From Flavobacterium geliluteum (lineage in GTDB: Bacteria > Bacteroidota > Bacteroidia > Flavobacteriales > Flavobacteriaceae), in the NCBI RefSeq assembly GCF_017948595.1, contig NZ_JAGFBV010000005.1:124001-188000 (forward strand): a DNA stretch of 64,000 nt, in the 5' to 3' direction. The notes under the pieces are model-generated. The model saw only the letters and a program-made list of their open reading frames with translations. It did not search any database and was not told where the DNA came from. Positions 32,647-44,356 of the stretch are shown piece after piece (position 1 is the stretch's first letter; every line of letters begins with the position of its first letter). Both the position numbers and the translations under genes were made by a program.

Positions 32647-32710
32647 ATTGTTTTTTTAGCAGCAGAACAATTGGGTTTCAAAAGGCGATCAGTCCTGATA
32701 TCTCTTTTAC

Positions 32711-32806
32711 CCGAGCGATAGCGAACAGGCGAAGCAAATCATCCCAAATACAAAACCAATTTGCGAATAAGCGAATTGCCCAAATCCGTTGTAATAGCTG
32801 TTAGCT
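32711..32806 (+). repeat. attC-like palindromic site, right half only
   Basis: It ends in CCCAAATCCGTTGTAATAGC followed by TGTTAGC, the same right arm as in the sites at 34.2-34.4 and 36.8-36.9 kb. The inner segment CGAGCGATAGCGAACAGGCG is also shared with the 34.2 kb site. The left TAAC half is missing, so this marks the mfd-side border of the block. Confidence 0.55.
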
Positions 32807-32815
32807 GATAACTTT

Positions 32816-33433
32816 TTATTCATTCTTTTGTTCAATATGTAGATATGTCCAATCAAAATAATCCTTCCCTAAGTCGTTTGTCCAACCTTCTGATTTGTAA
32901 TATTTATAAATAAAGTCATGGTCAATTAAACTACTATCTTTCCCAAGTTTTGTGTTTTTAAGAGTTAAAATACTTGAATTTAGAACCCCGAAATTATCTG
33001 CCACGTAGATTCTGTCAATTGGTGGAGAGTCGTCTCCGTGAAATTTGAAGTTAAAATATCTTTCATAAAACGATAACTCTAATTGTCCATTTTTGAATTT
33101 TGCAAGTCTGGCTTCTCCGCTTGTCGATTGGTAATACCCCAATAAAATTTCAGTGTCCAGTGATTTAGAAATACGTCTTAAAATTTCATCATAAAAATAC
33201 AAGTTACCTCCAAAATCAAATTCAATTTCTATCCAATCTTTGCTTTGGTTTTTAGTCAGTATAATTGTTGAGTTTTTTTCAATAGACGAGTTCTCATCGT
33301 GTTGTAAATTATAAAACCATTCTTTCCTTTTATCAAACAATAATTCTCTCCCGATTGAAAGATGTTTTTTTAATTCTGTTAGAACAGTTTCAATGTTTTT
33401 ACATTTGATATTTGTCTGTGAAAATGTTCCCAT
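32816..33433 (-). CDS. Cassette-like gene 1, unknown function
   Basis: 205 residues, no signal peptide and no recognised family. Features visible are an N-terminal TNIKCKNIETVLTELKKHL, a beta-rich middle (WIEIEFDFGGNLYFYDEILRRIS) and the C-terminal end WTYLHIEQKNE. Acidic and aromatic-rich small proteins of this kind are often immunity proteins, but nothing here proves that. It is the first of six leftward genes, each alone between palindromic sites. Its start is 24 bp from the TAAC end of the next site. Confidence 0.7.
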   Translation of the reverse strand: MGTFSQTNIKCKNIETVLTELKKHLSIGRELLFDKRKEWFYNLQHDENSSIEKNSTIILTKNQSKDWIEIEFDFGGNLYFYDEILRRISKSLDTEILLGYYQSTSGEARLAKFKNGQLELSFYERYFNFKFHGDDSPPIDRIYVADNFGVLNSSILTLKNTKLGKDSSLIDHDFIYKYYKSEGWTNDLGKDYFDWTYLHIEQKNE

Positions 33434-33456
33434 TACAGTTTATTTTTAAGTTATCA

Positions 33457-33588
33457 GCTAACGTTCCCGCGCTACAAGCAGGCTGGGATTAAAAATACGT
33501 AATCTTTCGGTTAAAACTAATTTGTCAGATATAAAACCAATTTCAAATTAATCCTAATACCCAAATTGCTTGTAGCGTGTCTTGGCAC
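33457..33588 (+). repeat. attC-like palindromic site B
   Basis: The left end is GCTAAC (33457-33462), then a 7-nt spacer GTTCCCG. Arm CGCTACAAGCA (33470-33480) is fully complementary to TGCTTGTAGCG (33567-33577). The right end TGTCTTGGCAC lacks the GTTA seen in other sites, so the site may be decayed. Confidence 0.6.
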
Positions 33589-33598
33589 TAGTTTTTAT

Positions 33599-34162
33599 TT
33601 ATTCTGCGTCATAATATTGTCCAAACCATTTGTCAAACGCTTCTTTGTGTTTTTCTTGTGCAGAACTAATGACAGCAGAAGGTTCTTGAATTTGGTCTAA
33701 CCCATAATCTCCTTTTAACCACTTTAAGAATTCATCCAAATCTTCGCTTTCTTCATAATCATCTTCGTCTTTATAAAAATAGATTTCTTCAAAATCAACT
33801 GAAATCTCTGTGTCAAATGTTATTAAATGCAGAAGTTGCAAAATATTTTCGGCTACAATATGTACACCGCCTTCGTCACCAAATACAACAATTGGCATTT
33901 CGTTCATTGGTTTAGTCGTTTCGTCATTCCAGATTGCATAAAAAGAACCCGAACCATTTGCTTGCGCAAAAGGAAATAATTTGTCTATAAATAGTGATTC
34001 TTTGCTCCAACTTTTAAGTCCTGTTTTGTCGTCAATTAATACTCCAAAACCTTGTGAGTAATTTTCAAAAGAAGAGATATTTGTTTGAAAGTAAATTAGT
34101 TTCTCTAATTCGGTTGGAATTGCGGTAAACCCCCAATTTTCTTTAAATTCGTTAATGTCCAT
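33599..34162 (-). CDS. Cassette-like gene 2, SMI1/KNR4-like protein
   Basis: 187 residues. The pattern WGFTAIPTELEKLIYFQTN, then FPFAQANGSGSFYAIW, then MPIVVFGDEGGVHIVAENILQLLHLI resembles the SMI1/KNR4 (SUKH) superfamily. Many of its bacterial members are immunity proteins against polymorphic or contact-dependent toxins. An acidic stretch (DEDDYEESEDLDEF) follows. No toxin gene is adjacent, so if it is an immunity gene it is an orphan, as is common in cassette arrays. Confidence 0.65.
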   Translation of the reverse strand: MDINEFKENWGFTAIPTELEKLIYFQTNISSFENYSQGFGVLIDDKTGLKSWSKESLFIDKLFPFAQANGSGSFYAIWNDETTKPMNEMPIVVFGDEGGVHIVAENILQLLHLITFDTEISVDFEEIYFYKDEDDYEESEDLDEFLKWLKGDYGLDQIQEPSAVISSAQEKHKEAFDKWFGQYYDAE

Positions 34163-34203
34163 ATCTTGTTGTTTTAGTTCTGTGGTCGTTCTGTAAAATT
34201 ACT

Positions 34204-34361
34204 GCTAACGTCCCGCCGCTACTGCAGCGGGTTTGGTACTAAATTAAGTCTTATTTTCAGATTTGCCACTCGAGCGATAGCGAACAGACGAAGCAAATTA
34301 TTACAAATACAAAAACATTTCCAAATTAAGTCTATTGCCCAAATCCGTTGGAGCTGTTACC
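34204..34361 (+). repeat. attC-like palindromic site C
   Basis: The left end is GCTAAC (34204-34209), then GTCCCGCCGCTACTGCAG. Arm CGGGTTTGG (34228-34236) pairs with CCAAATCCG near 34339-34347, and the right end is GAGCTGTTACC. The inner region contains CGAGCGATAGCGAACAGACG as in site A. Confidence 0.65.
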
Positions 34362-34375
34362 AGTAGTTTTTTTAG

Positions 34376-34972
34376 TTACCAAAATTTCCACCACTTTTTT
34401 GTGAGTTTAGTTTCAATTTGGTTTTCGTGTCCAAAAAAATATCCGTTAATAAATGTACTGTATTCACTAAGATTATAATTAGGATGTCTTTTCAAATTAT
34501 TAAGTTCATTTAAAATTGTTTTGTATTTTTCATTTAGTTCTGGTTTTTCATTTAATTGAAGTTTGACAAAACTAATAACATTATCTATCGGTTGATTTAA
34601 ATACATCATTTCGCTGTCCAACATTGTTCCGACGTCCATATTTTTCGAATTGAATTTGGCGTCATAAATTAAAAAAACATCTTCTAATTCTCCAATTTTA
34701 AACAAATAGAAACATAATTGATATAAATTATCGTGACGACGAGTGGATAATTCACATTTTAATTCTTCATCAAAAATTTTTCTAATCAATTCCACGTCTA
34801 TTGATGAGAAATCATTTAGCAATTCTTCTACTATTTCTGTTCTAAATGTTAGATTGTTATCAGCAACTTGACTATCTATATTTTCAGAATAAGCAAACAT
34901 TGAAACTAATTCAGTTACAACTATTTTGCTTTCACTTTTTCTGAATTTTTCTATTAATTCTTTGGCTTTCAT
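34376..34972 (-). CDS. Cassette-like gene 3, unknown helical protein
   Basis: 198 residues from ATG 34972 (MKAKELIEKFRKSESK). An upstream ATG at 35023 would translate palindromic sequence and is disfavoured. The protein is largely alpha-helical with HEAT-like alternation (IDVELIRKIFDEELKCEL, YQLCFYLFKIGELEDVFLIYDAKF), and ends in TKKWWKFW. No family is recognised. It is the third unit of the array. Confidence 0.68.
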   Translation of the reverse strand: MKAKELIEKFRKSESKIVVTELVSMFAYSENIDSQVADNNLTFRTEIVEELLNDFSSIDVELIRKIFDEELKCELSTRRHDNLYQLCFYLFKIGELEDVFLIYDAKFNSKNMDVGTMLDSEMMYLNQPIDNVISFVKLQLNEKPELNEKYKTILNELNNLKRHPNYNLSEYSTFINGYFFGHENQIETKLTKKWWKFW

Positions 34973-35078
34973 AAAATTACTGGTAGCGTGTGTGCTTGTT
35001 GCACAACTGTTCAAATATAACAAAAAGCAAACATTGACAAGAGTACTTTTTTGTAAATTAAAGCATGCAAGGAAGAAA

Positions 35079-35281
35079 AGATTTTCCCCCTGCTAGCGCG
35101 AGCGTCCCGCTCGTGAAAGTTCTCAATATCAATTAATATCAATTTATAAAACAGTTTGGTTATTGTCTCTATAATTTCTTACCGTACTATATTTCTAGTC
35201 TAGACGATTAGTAATGCCTTTGAGTTGCTATTTTTATACTTTGTGTTCACGAGCGGGACGCTCGCGCCAGCTGGGAAAACC
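35079..35281. mobile_element. MITE-like inverted-repeat element
   Basis: Two perfectly complementary 22-nt arms, 35096-35117 and 35245-35266, each carry an inner hairpin GAGCG-TCC-CGCTC. Pairing continues imperfectly outward to TTTTCCC / GGGAAAA. About 130 bp lie between the arms and contain no gene. The size and structure suggest a non-autonomous transposon or REP-like pair inserted in the spacer upstream of cassette gene 3. Confidence 0.55.
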
Positions 35282-35390
35282 AAGCAGAAACTACTTCAAA
35301 AAAAAAGAGGCACTATAGCCTCTTGAAATTCTTATAACTCATTTATCGAAAAACCCATAGTTGCGCAATGGTAGCGGTTCCGTTCAACAC

Positions 35391-35441
35391 GGGTTTCATT
35401 GTTGGCTCTACGAGCCCAACGAAACCCTAGCTGTTAGTGGC
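35391..35441 (+). repeat. attC-like right half (site D) with strong hairpin
   Basis: GGGTTTCATTGTTGGCTC (35391-35408) pairs with GAGCCCAACGAAACCC (35412-35427) and is followed by GCTGTTAGTGG, the usual right-hand GTTA end. A candidate left end TTATAAC lies near 35332, but pairing there is weak. Confidence 0.5.
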
Positions 35442-35447
35442 TGGCTC

Positions 35448-36734
35448 TTATTTAGTTTCTAGATTAAAATAGGTTGACATTTCAAGATTTTTATTTTCTC
35501 CAAAATAAACTTTACCATCTTTAGCAACTAAAAGAGGCTCATCAATTAAAAATCTCAACTTATTTTCTTCAATATATACTAATTTGGTGTCTTCTAATTC
35601 TTTAAGAAATTTAGGTAAGTTTATATTTTTTAGTTCAATGAATTTTTTAAACATTTTGTCATTAATAATATCTATTTCGTTCTGCTTAAGTAAAACATTA
35701 ATTATACTACATTTAATATCATCTATCTCTACTGGTTGCCAAGGAATTGCGGTCAAAGGAGTCAATAGTTCTGCTTTTGATAATGGATGATACCAATAAT
35801 CCCAACCTAAACAATCTTCACTAATTTTTTGTTCTTTACCATATAGAAATGAATGGATTAGCTCACTGTCAAAATTATCTCCAAAAATTTTAGAACTTAT
35901 GCTAAATTTATATGAAAGTCTTGTCCAAATCATTTCTAAAAGATGAAGCATTGGTTTTCCGTTTGATGAAAATAAAACAGGAAAATAGTATTCGTCATTT
36001 GTTAATGGCATTCCCATTGGCATTCCATTATTTTTTATTATTGTGCTATTACCACAAATATATAAATTTGGAAAACTTTCTGGAAAATAACCTTTGACTT
36101 TTCCTTTTTGAGTTAAATTTTCTAATATTTCTACGAAACCTTTACGTAGTCCATATTCGGTTTTATATCCATTAAATCCAATTACAATTCTTATTGGGTT
36201 AACAGTCTCCGAAATTAAATAATTAAATATTGTGTTTTGCCTTTCAGTAAATCTTTTTTTTATTTCTGGAGTAGGAATATCTTTAGAATGTAAACATTTA
36301 TATGCATCTCTAAATATCGTTTTTTCATATACGTTTAATTGCCTTTGTTCTGTAAGTTTTATAACAGAAAACAAGTTATTATGTGCTTCTTCAATATCTT
36401 TTCGGAAAAGATTTTTTTTTACTTGAAAAACTGCAATTACGTCATTAATGTGATATTTAAAACTGTTTGTAAAAGAAATATTTATTCCTTCACCAATAAC
36501 TAACATACAATCTATTTCATCGCTTAATTCTTTATCATTATTGTAGATAAAACTATTATTTACAATTTTTAAGTTTAATCCTTTAAAAATTGCCTTGTCT
36601 AATATATTTGCCGTTAAACCCTCAAATATGTTACCAATCGTTGGTGTATGGGTTATATCTTTTTCTTCTTGGTCAATTTTTGATAAAGCATTTTTCTTAA
36701 ATTCTTCTAAAAAATCTGAAATTGTTGAAATCAT
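35448..36734 (-). CDS. Cassette-like gene 4, DUF6602-like protein with PD-(D/E)XK-type core
   Basis: 428 residues from ATG 36734. A GTG at 36776 would extend it into the palindromic site and is less likely. The N-terminal helix MISTISDFLEEFKKN precedes TIGNIFEGLTANILDKAIF, then ELSDEIDCMLVIGEG, then INDVIAVFQVKKNLFRKDIEEAHNNL. This order (acidic helix, xxDxxL strand, QVK strand) resembles the DUF6602 group and the restriction-endonuclease fold, with Gln replacing the usual Glu. A C-terminal winged-helix-like part follows (FIELKNINLPKFLKELE). Function is unproven; defence-type nuclease is a reasonable guess. Confidence 0.65.
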   Translation of the reverse strand: MISTISDFLEEFKKNALSKIDQEEKDITHTPTIGNIFEGLTANILDKAIFKGLNLKIVNNSFIYNNDKELSDEIDCMLVIGEGINISFTNSFKYHINDVIAVFQVKKNLFRKDIEEAHNNLFSVIKLTEQRQLNVYEKTIFRDAYKCLHSKDIPTPEIKKRFTERQNTIFNYLISETVNPIRIVIGFNGYKTEYGLRKGFVEILENLTQKGKVKGYFPESFPNLYICGNSTIIKNNGMPMGMPLTNDEYYFPVLFSSNGKPMLHLLEMIWTRLSYKFSISSKIFGDNFDSELIHSFLYGKEQKISEDCLGWDYWYHPLSKAELLTPLTAIPWQPVEIDDIKCSIINVLLKQNEIDIINDKMFKKFIELKNINLPKFLKELEDTKLVYIEENKLRFLIDEPLLVAKDGKVYFGENKNLEMSTYFNLETK

Positions 36735-36774
36735 ATTTTGTAAGACTATTTTCTTCGGTTTTTTGGAGCTTGCC

Positions 36775-36906
36775 ACTAACGTCTTGGTACTACAGCGGGT
36801 TTGGGACTAAATTAATCCCTATTTTTGGTTTTACCAAATCATCCCAAATACAAAATCAACTTCCCATTAAGCCAATTGCCCAAATCCGTTGTAGTAGCTG
36901 TTATGC
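36775..36906 (+). repeat. attC-like palindromic site E (best preserved of the array)
   Basis: Left end ACTAAC (36775-36780), 7-nt spacer GTCTTGG, arm TACTACAGCGGGTTTGGG (36788-36805), opposite arm CCCAAATCCGTTGTAGTA (36879-36896), 3-nt spacer GCT, right end GTTATGC (36900-36906). The arms pair with two mismatches or bulges. About 75 bp lie between the arms. Confidence 0.7.
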
Positions 36907-36923
36907 GTTCGTTTTTTTATTAT

Positions 36924-37412
36924 TTATGCAATGAAGATTGGATATTTAAAATCATAAAAATCCTCCAACTCTTTAAATTTCCAACCACCATCTTTAAAGC
37001 CAAAATACCATTCATTGGTTTGAATTAAATTTTCTTTATTTTCAGAGTAGGATTCATCAATTTTTTTCCCAAAATACGAATTTCGATTTATCCAAAAAGG
37101 AATGAAATCACTATAAAAACCTTCGCAATGAAATTGAGCTTTTTCAAAATCAATGTTTCTAAGAATATTTTCAATTTTTAGTATAAACTTATTTATTTCA
37201 TCTAACTCTAAACCGAATTCTTTATATGTTGCTGCAAAACTTAAAATCATGTTACCGTAATAATATGGTATTTCATAATCACCAATACTGAACATATTTG
37301 AATTGATAAATGGATATGATTCATCTTTTCCAAGCTTCTTTATATAATCAATTGAGTTTTCATAATCTTGATTGATTATTATATAACCATGTACTAATTC
37401 ATTTCCACTCAT
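36924..37412 (-). CDS. Cassette-like gene 5, unknown function
   Basis: 162 residues with no signal peptide. A helical core (YYGNMILSFAATYKEFGLELDEINKFILKIENIL) and an aromatic-rich C terminus (EWYFGFKDGGWKFKELEDFYDF) are visible. No family is recognised. The composition is acidic and aromatic as in many immunity proteins. It stands alone between sites E and F, with its stop 17 bp from site E. Confidence 0.7.
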   Translation of the reverse strand: MSGNELVHGYIIINQDYENSIDYIKKLGKDESYPFINSNMFSIGDYEIPYYYGNMILSFAATYKEFGLELDEINKFILKIENILRNIDFEKAQFHCEGFYSDFIPFWINRNSYFGKKIDESYSENKENLIQTNEWYFGFKDGGWKFKELEDFYDFKYPIFIA

Positions 37413-37464
37413 ATATTTTAATGTTTTTAGATATTGGTTTTCTACATCGTTTAGCTAAAATGAC

Positions 37465-37595
37465 GCATAACGTTTCGCGAGCAGGCCTTCGTTGCGGCGA
37501 AGCGAACTGCGAAGTCTCCGCTAAGATAATGTTTTTCGTGGAAAACAAACCTCCGGCAACTGAAAACCAGCAATGAGGCTTGCTCGCTGTTATGC
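37465..37595 (+). repeat. attC-like palindromic site F
   Basis: Left end GCATAAC (37465-37471), 6-nt spacer GTTTCG, arm CGAGCAGGCC, opposite arm GGCTTGCTCG (37577-37586), 2-nt spacer CT, right end GTTATGC (37589-37595). The left and right 7-mers are exact reverse complements. Confidence 0.7.
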
Positions 37596-37604
37596 ACCGT
37601 TTTT

Positions 37605-38498
37605 TTACAATGCTATTAAAGTCCAATTTTCGGGAAATTTTTTCTCGACAACTGCTTGTTTAAATCCTGCTGGATTTATTTCGGATTTATCTTCAAAATA
37701 AACGACAGCATAGAAGAATTTATATTCAGGATCTCCTTCATAACTGTCAGCATCTGTTTTGATTTGATCAAGATATGTGCCGATTCCTGCTCCTTTTCTA
37801 ATATATTTATATTCCACCGCAGAACTAATTTCAGGAATTAATATATCAGGATGATAGGTAGTGAATTTTTTTATAAATCTAGCTTTGCCTAAACTTCTCA
37901 TAGTTGGATAAACAATTTCTACAAACCATTTAATAGGTGTATATATGGAAGTTTCATTAGTTACTTTCGATTTTGTTTTTGCCAATATTGAATTAGTATT
38001 CTCTAAAATTTGTTTAAGCTTATTTACTTCAAGTTTTTCAAAATAGTCAGTATTAAATTCTTGGAATGAACGTAAAAATTCTCTAAATTCATCGTGAATT
38101 ATCATTGATGGCTCATCATCTGCATATAATGGTCCTCGACTTTCACATACTTTTTTTTCATCATTTATTATTGGTTGAAATTTGTCGATAAACATTTTAT
38201 AATAAAGTGAAACATTTTTCAATTCAAGAAAAAGGCAGATTTTATAAAATAGTGCTCGAGTTCCATAAAATAGCCAAGTTATTTTATCTTCTCTTTCATA
38301 ATTAAAATGTAATTGTCCATTTCCATCTTCATAATATTCTTCGTCATTTCCAGGATAGACATAAACTTCCCAAAATGTTACTTCTAACTTGTGTAATTGG
38401 GTGGATATCTCTTTAGATAAAACTTGTATTTCTTCTTTTCTGTCTGTCAATGTAGTTTGTTTTTTTAAAATGGTGCATAACTTATTTATACCAGCCAT
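37605..38498 (-). CDS. Cassette-like gene 6, PD-(D/E)XK nuclease-like C-terminal domain
   Basis: 297 residues. The N-terminal about 190 residues are helical with no match I can name. The C-terminal part reads HPDILIPEISSAVEYKYIRKG, then YLDQIKTDADSY, then FFYAVVYFED. This fits the PD-(D/E)XK nuclease core (Asp in PDIL, Glu-x-Lys in EYK) with the helix that follows. Stand-alone proteins of this layout are often restriction or other anti-phage components, but no partner methylase is nearby. It is the last unit; no site is visible on its right side. Confidence 0.68.
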   Translation of the reverse strand: MAGINKLCTILKKQTTLTDRKEEIQVLSKEISTQLHKLEVTFWEVYVYPGNDEEYYEDGNGQLHFNYEREDKITWLFYGTRALFYKICLFLELKNVSLYYKMFIDKFQPIINDEKKVCESRGPLYADDEPSMIIHDEFREFLRSFQEFNTDYFEKLEVNKLKQILENTNSILAKTKSKVTNETSIYTPIKWFVEIVYPTMRSLGKARFIKKFTTYHPDILIPEISSAVEYKYIRKGAGIGTYLDQIKTDADSYEGDPEYKFFYAVVYFEDKSEINPAGFKQAVVEKKFPENWTLIAL

Positions 38499-38748
38499 AA
38501 AATGGCTCCAATCTACCCTAATTAAGGTGTATATAGGAAGTTTTGTTCCGTTTTATAGTATGTTTCCGTTTTAATAATAAAGCATTATAAATGCCTCATT
38601 CATTATAAAACAAATATAACAATTCCAGCATCATCATCTCTGAGTGAAACCGTAATGAGAGATTATTTATTTTCAGACAAGTATACCATTAAATAAATGT
38701 TCGTGAGCAGGTATTTATACCTGTTTTGGTGGAGTGATGTGGTTTTGT

Positions 38749-39142
38749 CACAAAGTGTTTGAGTCTTTTCACCAAGTTTTTAGGTTACATTATGAAGTGT
38801 TTGGGTTGTTTACCTAAACGTTTAGGTGCAGCACCCAAAACTTTAGGTCGGGAACCTAAAACTTTGCCCTCGGCACCTAAAAACTTCATGACGGAACCTA
38901 AACGTTTAGGTCTACAACCTAAACTTTGGGGTTCGGAACCCCTCGGTTGGGGTTCTGAGGTGCTCGGTTGGGGTTCCGAACCCCAAATTTGACGTTCGGA
39001 ACGTCAAATTTGACCCCCAAGGACGTCAAATTTGACGTCTGCAACGCCATTTTTGACGTTCGGAACCCCATTGATGGGGCTCGACACCCCAAATTTGGGG
39101 TTCAGGACGCCATCGATGGAGCTTAGAACCCCAAACGAGCTG
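38749..39142. repeat. Array of about 18 palindromic units in exact 21-bp register
   Basis: Units begin at 38749 and recur every 21 bp without indels to 39127 (for example 38812, 38833, 38854, 38875, 38896, 38917, 38938, 38959, 38980, 39001, 39022, 39043, 39064, 39085, 39106). Perfect cores are ACCTAAACGTTTAGGT, GACGTCAAATTTGACGTC and ACCCCAAATTTGGGGT. Arm sequence changes along the array (CCTAAA, then CCCC, then ACGTC) but self-complementarity is kept, either inside units or across junctions such as GGGGTTCGGAACCCC. A 77-residue frame (38759-38992) crosses part of it, but later units carry stops, so the array is most likely non-coding. The rest of 38499-39432 shows only the terminator listed below. 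Confidence 0.9.
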
Positions 39143-39378
39143 TTTTTTGAGCCATTACTTTAGAAAAAAGCCTTTTGAGAATCAGATTTCAAAAGGGTTT
39201 TTAAGTTGGTTAGTACTCTTTATAGTGTTCTGAATGGATTGATTTTGTTCTACAATAGAATAAATTCTTGATGGAACATTTGGGTTATCCGAAAGAAAAT
39301 GCTCCCGCACTTAATATTGATACCATTCTAGAAAAAATCAAATGGTAATGAGTATGTATTGATGATGGTCGTTTCTTA

Positions 39379-39421
39379 AAACAAATGGCGTATGAAAATT
39401 TTCATACGCCATTTGTTTTTT
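39379..39421. terminator. Strong hairpin terminator downstream of the GH97 gene
   Basis: A perfect stem AAACAAATGGCGTATGAAAA / TTTTCATACGCCATTTGTTT is followed by T residues on the plus strand and, on the minus strand, also by T residues. It ends 12 bp before the GH97 stop codon. Confidence 0.85.
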
Positions 39422-39432
39422 GAGTAAAGAAT

Positions 39433-41619
<2,187 letters not shown>

Positions 41620-41726
41620 CTAGTTTTTTGCAAAGCTAATTTATTAAAGACTTTATTACAGCAATTTTGCGATTAAATATTGGCGAGACATTGTTTTTTC
41701 TGGCATTCAAACTCTTTAAAAGAAAA

Positions 41727-41925
41727 AAAACCACCCGATAAAGGTGGTTTTTAATGGTTGATAGTGTAGTTTAATTATATTATTTAGTTTGTTGTGAATT
41801 TGTAGTTCCCCAACTTTAAGCTTTTTCTTTTTTTATCGTTCGTTTTCTATATTTTTTTGGCAGTAATAATTTAAACTGTATTAAATTATCATACTGTCAA
41901 AACGAGTGCGCTAATAGAGTATCGT
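41727..41925 (-). ncRNA. Candidate structured small RNA (orphan promoter to terminator)
   Basis: A TATATTTG box on the minus strand (41938-41931) would start a transcript near 41925. That transcript runs about 200 nt to the terminator hairpin AAACCACC/GGTGGTTT with a T tract (41752-41727). No frame longer than a few codons lies between. Inside it, CAGTATGATAATTTAA pairs with TTTAAATTATTACTG to form a long hairpin. The rest of 41614-42183 holds only the terminator of the operon to the right. Confidence 0.4.
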
Positions 41926-42110
41926 ATTAGCAAATATATAAAAATATTATTCGCAATAAGCGTTCTCGAAAAAACATAAAGCTGTTTTTTTGTGAAATTT
42001 TATAAGGTGATTTACAGCAGGTTTTTAAAGGTCGTTTTTAGGTATTCGATTATTTTTAATTTTTTAAATGTTTCGTAATAACACAGAAAATCATTTAGGT
42101 TATTGGCATA

Positions 42111-42153
42111 AAAAAATCCTTTAATCTTTTCTGAGAAAAAGAAAAAAGGATTA
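42111..42153 (-). terminator. Terminator of the leftward 42.2-44.4 kb genes
   Basis: AATCCTTT and AAAGGATT pair around an inner TCTTTTC/GAAAAAG stem. In the leftward direction a run of seven T residues follows. Confidence 0.75.
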
Positions 42154-42183
42154 TATACGGAATGCTAGTTTATGAATATTCGC

Positions 42184-42840
42184 CTAGTTTTTCAGGTCTT
42201 TAATTACTTTAAAAGCAACATCTACCTGATCTTCTCCAACCAAAATAGTAAATTCGTTAGAAGTAGAAATTACCTCGTTGATGATGATTCCTTCCCACGC
42301 CAAACGCTGAAAAATAAAATAATAAATTCCGGGCACCACGATGTTTTCTTTGGGTAATTTTACCGTAATTGAAGCCAGATTGTCTAATTTTTGAATCAGT
42401 TTTTCGCGTACAAAATGTTTTTCAACCAAATGATTGACGCTGCTGCTCACCACGATATTGGTTTCGTTTACGCCACGGGACGAAGTGTAAAAAATATCAG
42501 ATAATGCATTAATATCAGAGATCAAATCGGCTTGTTTGTTTAAAACCGTTTCTGAAGCGGCAAAAGTGTAGTCGGTCAATTCAGAGCGAACGGTGATCTC
42601 GCCAATATTCTTAATAACCTTATTGATTTTATGATTTAATTTAAAGTCTAATTCTTCAGTAAGTCGTTTGAGCGACATTACAACAGCACCTTGTTTTACT
42701 TCTTTACCAAATTCACTTTCTAATTCGGTCATGATGTTTCTGGAAAGCGATGTCAGATTGATAATTCCAAGTGATAAAGCATTCAATAAAAAGGGCTTTG
42801 TTTTGATGTAATTTTCTACAATTGAAGAAACAGTTTTCAT
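42184..42840 (-). CDS. Conserved protein with ACT-like C-terminal region (aspartate-kinase-related regulatory domain)
   Basis: 218 residues from ATG 42840. The frame is open to 42927, but those 29 codons lie in AT-rich leader. The N-terminal half is helical with a winged-helix look (VENYIKTKPFLLNALSLGIINLTSLSRNIMTEL). The C-terminal third (SITVKLPKENIVVPGIYYFIFQRLAWEGIIINEVISTSNEFTILVGEDQVDVAFKVIKDL) has the beta-alpha-beta order and NEFTILV strand typical of ACT domains in aspartate kinase. There is no kinase catalytic domain. It may be a small-molecule-sensing regulator. Confidence 0.5.
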   Translation of the reverse strand: MKTVSSIVENYIKTKPFLLNALSLGIINLTSLSRNIMTELESEFGKEVKQGAVVMSLKRLTEELDFKLNHKINKVIKNIGEITVRSELTDYTFAASETVLNKQADLISDINALSDIFYTSSRGVNETNIVVSSSVNHLVEKHFVREKLIQKLDNLASITVKLPKENIVVPGIYYFIFQRLAWEGIIINEVISTSNEFTILVGEDQVDVAFKVIKDLKN

Positions 42841-42958
42841 AATTCTTTTTTTTTGGTTGTAATGTAATTGGTTTAATGTAGTTAATTGCGATGTTATAAA
42901 TCTGCGCAAATATAAATAAAAAAACAATTTGTTACAATTATAACAATAAAAATTTATG

Positions 42959-43318
42959 TTAAAAGTGATAAAAAGCGTCTGTAAGGTGTTCTATTGCAAA
43001 TGTTTCGTTGTTTTTATGTATCGAAATGATATCAAATCGTACTTCAAAATCCATTTCCCTATCGTTTATGTAGGCATTTATAGCTTTTACAAGTAGCTGA
43101 ATCTTTTTTGGTTTTACAAAATCTTGTGGGAGTCCGAAATCTAAACTAGATCGTGTTTTGACTTCAATGACAGCCAAAATAGTTTCTTTTTGGGCAATGA
43201 TATCTATTTCTGCTTTTTGGTACGTCCAGTTTCGATCCAGAATTTCATAACCATTTTGCTGTAAATAGGCTACGGCAAGATCTTCTCCTTTTTTTCCGAG
43301 TTCGTTGTGTTCTGCCAT
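42959..43318 (-). CDS. yraN: YraN/UPF0102 family protein
   Basis: 119 residues with a restriction-endonuclease-like core: GKKGEDLAVAYLQQNGYEILDRN, then KAEIDIIAQ, then LAVIEVKTRSS. This gives the Glu, Asp and Glu-x-Lys residues expected. The family is conserved across bacteria and suspected to act on Holliday junctions or other branched DNA, but the role is not settled. It is 33 bp downstream of the LD-carboxypeptidase gene and probably in the same transcript. Confidence 0.92.
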   Translation of the reverse strand: MAEHNELGKKGEDLAVAYLQQNGYEILDRNWTYQKAEIDIIAQKETILAVIEVKTRSSLDFGLPQDFVKPKKIQLLVKAINAYINDREMDFEVRFDIISIHKNNETFAIEHLTDAFYHF

Positions 43319-43351
43319 AACAATTAATATTTAGTATCGTTTTTGTTCGTG

Positions 43352-44356
43352 TTACGGCTGGAAAGAAAGCGTGCTTCCGGTGGTATTTACTTCCATATTA
43401 ACCGTGCTTCCCATAATAAGAGAGCGATTGTCCCTGATATGTCCTGCAGGGAAATTAAAAATAATCGGGATTTTGTAGGTTTTGGTGATGTCTTCAATGA
43501 TTTCTAATGCATTTTTGCCCCAGGGAATATCATTATCTTTCATGCCAGACATGGCTCCAATTACAATTCCTTTCAAGTTTTCGATACAGCCATTACGTTT
43601 CAAATTCATCATCATACGATCGATGTGATAGAGGTATTCATCGAGATCTTCGATAAATAAAATTTTGTCTTTGCAGTCAAAGGCAGATGGAGAACCTATT
43701 AAACTGTAAACAATTGATAAATTTCCGCCTACGATTTCGCCAGTGGCTGTCCCAAACCGATTCTTAGGATCGGGAGGAAGGGTATACGAAAGTGGCTCCC
43801 CGAACAAACTTGCTTTTAATGTTGCAATCGCTTCGGGAGTTGCACGCGGAATACTTATGGGCATCGTGCCATGTATCGATTTGTAACCCATTGTATTCAA
43901 ATGTTCGTGCAAAACGGTAACATCGCTAAAACCAACAATCCATTTTGGGTGTTGTTTAAACTGAGTGTAATCAATTAAATCTACCATTCTCACGGTCCCG
44001 TAACCACCGCGAACACACCAAATAGCTTTAATGTTCGGATTGTCCAGCTGTTGCTGAAAATCGGCTGCACGCTGCTCATCGGTTCCGGCTAATTGGTTAA
44101 TATCAAGCCCAATAGTACTGCCAATTTTAACTTCCAATCCCCAACTGTGAAGCAGATCAATGGCTGGTTTTAAGTTGTCGGTAATGTTTTTGCGTGCCGT
44201 AGACAGAAAAGCGACGGTGTCTCCTTTTTGTAGATAAGGAGGTGTGATCATCTTTTGCTGTGCGGAACAGTTTACTGAAAATAAAACAAAAAAGACAACG
44301 ACTAAAGAGGCAAAAGCGACTTGTTTGTTGAGTTTTATCAATAGAGTGGTATTCAT
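43352..44356 (-). CDS. LD-carboxypeptidase (S66), peptidoglycan recycling type
   Basis: Cleaves the terminal D-amino acid from murein tetrapeptide. The 334-residue product has an N-terminal signal or anchor segment (about 13-33, ending NCSAQQ). The nucleophile Ser lies in VGFSDVTVLHEHL, and the later Glu and His are in FIEDLDEYLYHID and NFPAGHIRDNRSLIMG. The presence of a signal suggests a periplasmic enzyme, unlike the cytoplasmic LdcA of E. coli. It heads the leftward group with yraN. Confidence 0.9.
   Translation of the reverse strand: MNTTLLIKLNKQVAFASLVVVFFVLFSVNCSAQQKMITPPYLQKGDTVAFLSTARKNITDNLKPAIDLLHSWGLEVKIGSTIGLDINQLAGTDEQRAADFQQQLDNPNIKAIWCVRGGYGTVRMVDLIDYTQFKQHPKWIVGFSDVTVLHEHLNTMGYKSIHGTMPISIPRATPEAIATLKASLFGEPLSYTLPPDPKNRFGTATGEIVGGNLSIVYSLIGSPSAFDCKDKILFIEDLDEYLYHIDRMMMNLKRNGCIENLKGIVIGAMSGMKDNDIPWGKNALEIIEDITKTYKIPIIFNFPAGHIRDNRSLIMGSTVNMEVNTTGSTLSFQP

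Follow-up and report, generated by a model that had tools for sequence, protein, structure and literature searches.

A palindromic repeat array in Flavobacterium geliluteum belongs to a dispersed family of 21-bp lattices, and the recurrence of this palindromic pattern behind one gene in many relatives suggests a module of gene plus repeat that has not been described before. The array occupies 38749-39142 of the stretch analysed here (64,000 nucleotides, hereafter the window) and the gene, for which we coined the name AAP in this analysis, encodes a protein of ~160 aa. Our best explanation, which we hold tentatively, is that the window array is a duplex-DNA lattice and an orphan copy of a Bacteroidota module of AAP, terminator and array, with AAP as its likeliest binder. 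An earlier note on this DNA had proposed looking among the genome neighbours of such arrays for a shared protein, and the AAP family that turned up beside them is our main result.

The window array and its family

The best-fit chain across the interval has 18 units, in agreement with the count of about 18 in the earlier note, and the units are as described there palindromic and close to two helical turns in length. Each carries the constant positions AC-N3-A-N4-T-N3-GT and is followed by a 5-nt linker, giving a period of 21. The register had been thought free of indels; there is however a single 22-bp step (39001->39023), and steps of 22 bp occur in other arrays too. A detector of period plus inversion returned 38749-39142 as its sole match in the 64-kb window and no further array. 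The array and its surroundings comprise:

32709..38498, minus strand: integron-type cassette block adjoining the array, four cassettes with matching core letters at both ends
38476..38523, minus strand: attI-like core with a recombination-type core GTT at 38479-38481
38524..38748, minus strand: conserved spacer common to sister copies, containing TATATTTG at 38611-38618 (-)
38707..38727, strand unassigned: 16-nt hairpin CAGGTATTTATACCTG with a T-run, between the array and the attI-like region, conserved in sister copies
38749..39142, strand unassigned: 21-bp palindromic array, 18 units with the one 22-bp step
39164..39205, minus strand: terminator-like hairpin with a T-run, matching the hairpin that in L013 stands between the AAP gene and the array, the window copy lacking the gene

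All five palindromes quoted in the earlier note were located (38812 and 38896, 39022, 39086, 38928 and 38991), the two at junctions being of odd length with one unpaired central base each. In comparison with 300 dinucleotide shuffles perfect palindromes are far in excess, with 4 even ones of at least 14 nt (mean 0.03, maximum 1) and 3 odd ones with 6-nt arms (mean 0.17, maximum 2). The junction palindromes do not count as extra evidence because any array of period 21 bp that has one dyad must have another at a distance of 10.5 bp. A translated heptapeptide repeat was rejected for the window array, and the non-coding view taken earlier stands: stops are present in all six frames (between 2 and 10 in each, with 80 codons as the longest stretch free of them), the open frame varies by unit type and 22-bp steps shift the frame. 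For arrays elsewhere a crude ORF call gave an open frame inside the array in 13 of 46 rows.

A DNA search returned about twenty further places in the window's own genome, and counting the window, 20 fetched loci read singly and two found by covariance model this genome holds at least 23 arrays; across the genus they were detected in 24 of 199 genomes (E <= 1e-6). Model R1 was built from 29 of 50 candidate windows, one misaligned window of 84 nt being dropped between alignments A1 and A2. The constant unit positions are conserved across arrays and the register is one of 21-22 bp, with 309 steps of 21 bp and 22 of 22 bp in 26 arrays, and 666 of 21, 78 of 22 and 2 of 20 bp in 69 detected stretches. 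Copies differ in length by whole units, and homogenised arrays exist (L020 and L024, for example). Judged by this crude ORF call array positions are intergenic, the flanks being tandem at 24, convergent at 12 and divergent at 9 of 45 places, with three places double-counted. No Pfam family was matched by more than two of the 41 genes beside the arrays of this genome. Tandem repeats of 21/22 bp of another kind, AT-rich and different in sequence, were seen near Y1_Tnp genes at L203, L207 and L232.

AAP and its association with the arrays

The AAP family was found by an all-against-all comparison of 244 genes around arrays in 20 genomes. It adjoins 13 arrays in 10 genomes and its 3' end faces the array in 11 of the 13. 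Across the genus AAP occurs in 25 of 199 genomes, strongly in 23, and arrays in 24, both being present in 14 (Fisher p 9e-10, the weak-AAP genomes G030 and G068 not being counted as AAP-positive in the 2x2 table). An array was present in the fetched stretch at 27 of the 30 AAP loci of the genus search, at relaxed thresholds for which there is no control. A strong match to AAP is lacking in 10 of the 24 genomes with arrays, so arrays persist without AAP.

The linkage was also tested from the protein alone, using a search of one genome per species that gave 232 relatives, the best 80 of which were taken as loci. These 80 come from Flavobacterium, Chryseobacterium, Kaistella, Epilithonimonas, Cloacibacterium and Niabella, and from MAGs named Saprospiraceae, Chitinophagales, Bacteroidales and others. 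With two loci left out as too short, a period-21/22 array is found no more than 400 bp downstream at 63 of 78, compared with 3 of 76 at a control distance of 1.5-1.9 kb and 5 of 77 upstream. The corresponding figures are 54/68, 2/66 and 4/67 with the discovery genomes excluded (leaving 14/68 AAP loci with no array downstream), 26/32, 0/31 and 1/32 outside Flavobacterium, and 34/45, 0/44 and 3/45 for representatives below 80% identity. Among the 21 lags tested 21, 22, 42 and 43 clearly stand out and lag 20 is slightly raised (10%). At 60 of 80 loci a terminator-like hairpin separates gene from array, within 130 nt after the AAP gene; mononucleotide shuffles gave such a hairpin in 2 of 80.

The more similar two AAP proteins are, the more similar are their arrays (Mantel r 0.42, 0/999 permutations, 56 of the 80 loci), a correlation that could come from linked inheritance alone; arrays are alike between close orthologues and not in 12 same-genome paralogue pairs (cosine 0.04-0.34). 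Several AAP-linked arrays (L243, L245, L246, L261, L242) match themselves best at a shift of 43 bp (21+22), at up to 94%. At L272, L274, L281, L282 and L303 a dtd-like gene is followed by AAP and then the array, in what appears by eye to be a variable spot, with a RAYT-like gene, a DUF262-like protein and long unnamed proteins seen by eye beyond the array; the gene names dtd, rsgA, mazG and aroA are our own assignments by eye from the sequences. A PADLOC scan for an enrichment of defence genes beyond the arrays (69/78 downstream genes, compared with 68/78 upstream genes) matched 233 family names downstream and 125 upstream, these being counts of family names and not of genes.

AAP is predicted to be all-helical with a helix of 52 residues (mean pLDDT 87, pTM 0.70). 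It is acidic, with a median pI of 5.2 and none of 60 sequences above 8. In an alignment of 60 of the 80 proteins (A6) E50, N52, K53, L54 and K58 are invariant, and the most conserved segment is residues 45-58 (YGSINEQNKLxVNK), which in the model follows a turn and begins a helix. No match above cut-off was found in Pfam or NCBIfam, to transposases including Y1_Tnp or to any other family, and the model gave no match at E <= 0.001 to PDB or viral folds, helix-turn-helix or other; the best VIA-align result had Z 4.1 and rmsd 3.9 over 56 residues, which does not exclude known families. PHROGs (three proteins searched) and PDB sequences gave nothing better than E 0.07 and 0.1 respectively, and phage records, plasmid records and viral contigs gave no match. 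We found no description of the array or of the AAP module in a literature search outside which lay most subscription papers and all preprints.

The integron-type surroundings and the origin of the window copy

The window array sits next to a cassette array of integron type, at the attI-like end of the latter, and the adjoining block contains four cassettes with matching core letters (attC) at start and end (38481/37595, 37471/36906, 36780/35439 and 33462/32806). The attI-like core shares 94% identity over 48 bp with the site that follows this genome's IntI-like gene (L093), and the TATATTTG of the spacer is one that we take to resemble a Bacteroidetes -7 element. No integron integrase scored above curated cut-off in this genome or in 150 genomes of the genus, the best own integrase-like protein reaching 204.5 bits against 265 for TIGR02249 and 212.1 against 220 for NF040815. 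The IntI-like protein of the genome is encoded elsewhere (C48; L093:5626-6811), the 3' end of its gene ~60 bp from an attI core, and IntI-like genes likewise lie beside an attI core in five relatives (L094-L098). As far as the available portions of two reports go, integrons and CALINs have attC-like sites and can have an attI-like end without an integrase beside it (PMC8618304, PMC9668308), and in these terms the block is similar, with attC-like sites, an attI-like end and no integrase beside it; unlike them the palindromic array is neither attC nor attI and mostly occurs without either.

The first cassette gene (37605-38498) encodes a DpnII/MboI-like restriction endonuclease domain (PF18742, E 1.3e-7). 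A MITE-like element of 188 bp at 35088-35275 has 30-bp terminal inverted repeats (93%) and four more copies in L014 at 82-87% identity. Directly past the end of the GH97 gene, at 39378-39419, is a perfect 42-nt inverted repeat, and similar hairpins are found at the same junction in L352 and L353. In seven relatives (L350-L356) the mfd-GH97 interval ranges from ~1.5 to 9.3 kb and contains different genes; it holds no array and, among the matches listed, no blastn match to the cassette block, which is therefore an insertion relative to those seven.

Sister copies of the window array share more than the array itself. The stretch from array through attI-like region down to the core is common to the window, L009, L011, L012 and L019 at ~81-92% identity, and the likeness of L010, at ~81-92% identity as well, begins at 38508; L013 and L014 have only parts in common with the window copy. 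The order in L013 is AAP, terminator, array, and in L019 it is AAP, array, attI-like region, with an open frame beyond the core. The window has a terminator that matches L013 and the same array start, and AAP had no match better than E 0.38 in 34001-44000, the three AAP genes of this genome all being on other contigs. Because of the arrangements in L013 and L019 the window array would most simply be an AAP-array copy that has been orphaned and linked to an attI-like platform. Such a copy would have retained the AAP-type terminator with no AAP gene and been duplicated with the platform.

Arm pairing, possible mechanism and competing explanations

According to the earlier note, changes in one arm are matched across the fold in the other, as in the covariation of a structured RNA or in a DNA site that a dimer reads. 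In 65 arrays with 806 units from 20 genomes (4 of the 69 detected stretches, having fewer than 6 units, were left out) facing arms showed identities of 0.558 within units and 0.582 across junctions, compared with 0.565 and 0.600 for arms one unit further on and 0.654 and 0.698 for direct neighbours. Facing arms thus pair no better than arms one unit further on, the compensatory changes that define a structured RNA were not found, and covariation of that kind was rejected. Within units facing arms exceeded arms two units further by 0.028 (sd 0.011), and they were above global and within-array shuffles, which ignore locality, with 81.5% of cells paired vs 74.0% shuffled. Arm sequences come from a list of words and resemble those nearby; it is not their pairing that is conserved. 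Left and right arms use one vocabulary in mirror orientation (CCCCA 88/75, CGTCA 52/49, CCTAA 45/41), which suits half-sites on duplex DNA better than a fold. The dimer-read half of the suggestion is therefore retained and preferred and the structured-RNA half is not.

We propose a two-part module in which the gene for the ~160-aa helical AAP is followed by a terminator and then by the 21-bp palindromic lattice. Each arm would be a half-site on duplex DNA for one protomer of a dimeric protein, and with two dyads in every 21 bp, successive dyads 10.5 bp apart would look to one face of the helix, which could allow cooperative loading of dimers on the array. As the binder AAP would be the likeliest candidate, through its segment 45-58, which judging from the model could be a recognition helix. 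Arrays would grow or shrink by whole units and settle in intergenic sites, where they may affect neighbouring genes. Against binding by AAP stand its acidity, the lack of a solved-fold match at E <= 0.001 and the 10 of 24 array genomes with no strong match to it.

The array might instead act as RNA, a transcribed string of small hairpins that binds or restrains AAP in the way that repeat RNAs keep toxins in check in type III toxin-antitoxin systems, whose toxins are of the ToxN/CptN/TenpN kind. Positions 38690-39180 fold strongly (z -9.3 on the plus and -8.4 on the minus strand), the pairing of gene and repeat array is conserved, and in a count over 50 of the 56 Mantel-test loci G.T mismatches slightly exceed A.C on the AAP-sense strand, a hint of RNA (220 vs 167 in junction pairs, p 0.008, the cells not being independent; 250 vs 211 in unit pairs, p 0.08). 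So far as the parts available describe them, type III loci (ToxIN, CptIN) likewise consist of a small protein gene with an adjoining tandem repeat array (PMC8860590, PMC4627078); set against these descriptions the present array lies behind the gene and past a terminator, its units are palindromic and the toxin family is unmatched. The order that defines type III, with the repeat array first and the toxin gene after it on a single transcript, is not what we see, the arrays being downstream at 63/78 and upstream at 5/77 loci with the terminator at 60/80. AAP matched no type III toxin above cut-off in Pfam or NCBIfam and no such fold at E <= 0.001, which does not exclude a relative. With facing-arm covariation absent as well we consider the RNA reading unlikely. 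Improbable too is that the arrays are REP-like mobile or selfish palindromes with no host role, spread by a RAYT-like transposase or by AAP acting as a mobility protein of some other kind. Their scatter between genes would fit, as would the absence of the L025 array from the orthologous site in G015, G008 and G004, the RAYT-like genes adjoining two arrays (L157, L174) and a Y1_Tnp remnant ~0.4 kb from another (L223). REP/BIME elements with RAYT are, in the available parts of four reports, single or paired hairpins of 20-40 bp with a related gene flanked by copies (PMC2817692, PMC3116915, PMC3733652, PMC12306157), and on that description the likeness lies in short intergenic palindromes, at times grouped, dispersed in many copies and in a related gene with copies beside it, whereas our units form a tandem lattice in fixed register and the partner is helical with no Y1 transposase match. 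A Y1 RAYT gene flanked by palindromes is the defining feature of REP/RAYT; AAP has no Y1_Tnp match, and Y1-like neighbours were found at 2 array loci. Moreover Y1_Tnp is found in 8 of 13 array-free vs 9 of 15 array-bearing genomes (28 searched), the intact RAYT-like gene of this genome has a different flanking palindrome, and AAP keeps its fixed place beside the array over many genera. The RAYT-like frame of this genome (194 aa, L225:2969-3740) has CCTRCAAGGTTTTTAAAACCTTGYAGG on either side, and this REP/RAYT arrangement is distinct from the arrays. RAYT was rejected as the partner: Y1_Tnp stretches near apparent arrays are L203, L207, L209, L223 and L232, where L209 and L232 are one place, and three of these four places hold other 21/22-bp repeats, the true array being at L223 only.

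A neutral tandem repeat, expanded by slippage and palindromic by chance, would account for whole-unit length differences and homogenised arrays; we think it very unlikely given that in many genera this lattice keeps to one side of one and the same gene and that its constant positions are conserved. Most remote of all is an integron accessory, in which the array belongs to the attI platform and aids cassette recombination. Array and attI-like region do occur together in the window, L009, L010, L011, L012 and L019, but such a region is lacking near most arrays of this genome and the attI sites of the five relatives with an IntI-like gene beside them have no array; an integron origin of the array was rejected on the same evidence. 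CRISPR arrays are tandem and partly palindromic as well and combine constant repeats with unique spacers, whereas the present units run head to tail with 5-nt linkers only and unique spacers are absent. A defining feature that we tested is absent here in the case of REP/RAYT, of type III toxin-antitoxin systems, of CRISPR and of coding repeats alike.

Returning to the AAP module, it seems to us evenly balanced whether it represents an undescribed Bacteroidota system, in which a helical protein without library relatives has behind its gene a cognate lattice recognised by protein or array RNA and orphan lattices would be additional places where it acts, some bordering on integron-type cassette blocks. 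A repeat that looks like noise is tied to a specific conserved and unannotated gene, most of the best 80 of 232 AAP relatives having an array right behind the gene, and its role is thereby testable. Binding of the lattice by AAP would make this a DNA-organising or regulatory module of a new kind in a major phylum, and action of the array as RNA would make it a protein-RNA repeat system that is likewise new. The module would meet genome plasticity at those orphan arrays that adjoin integron-type cassettes and other variable genes.
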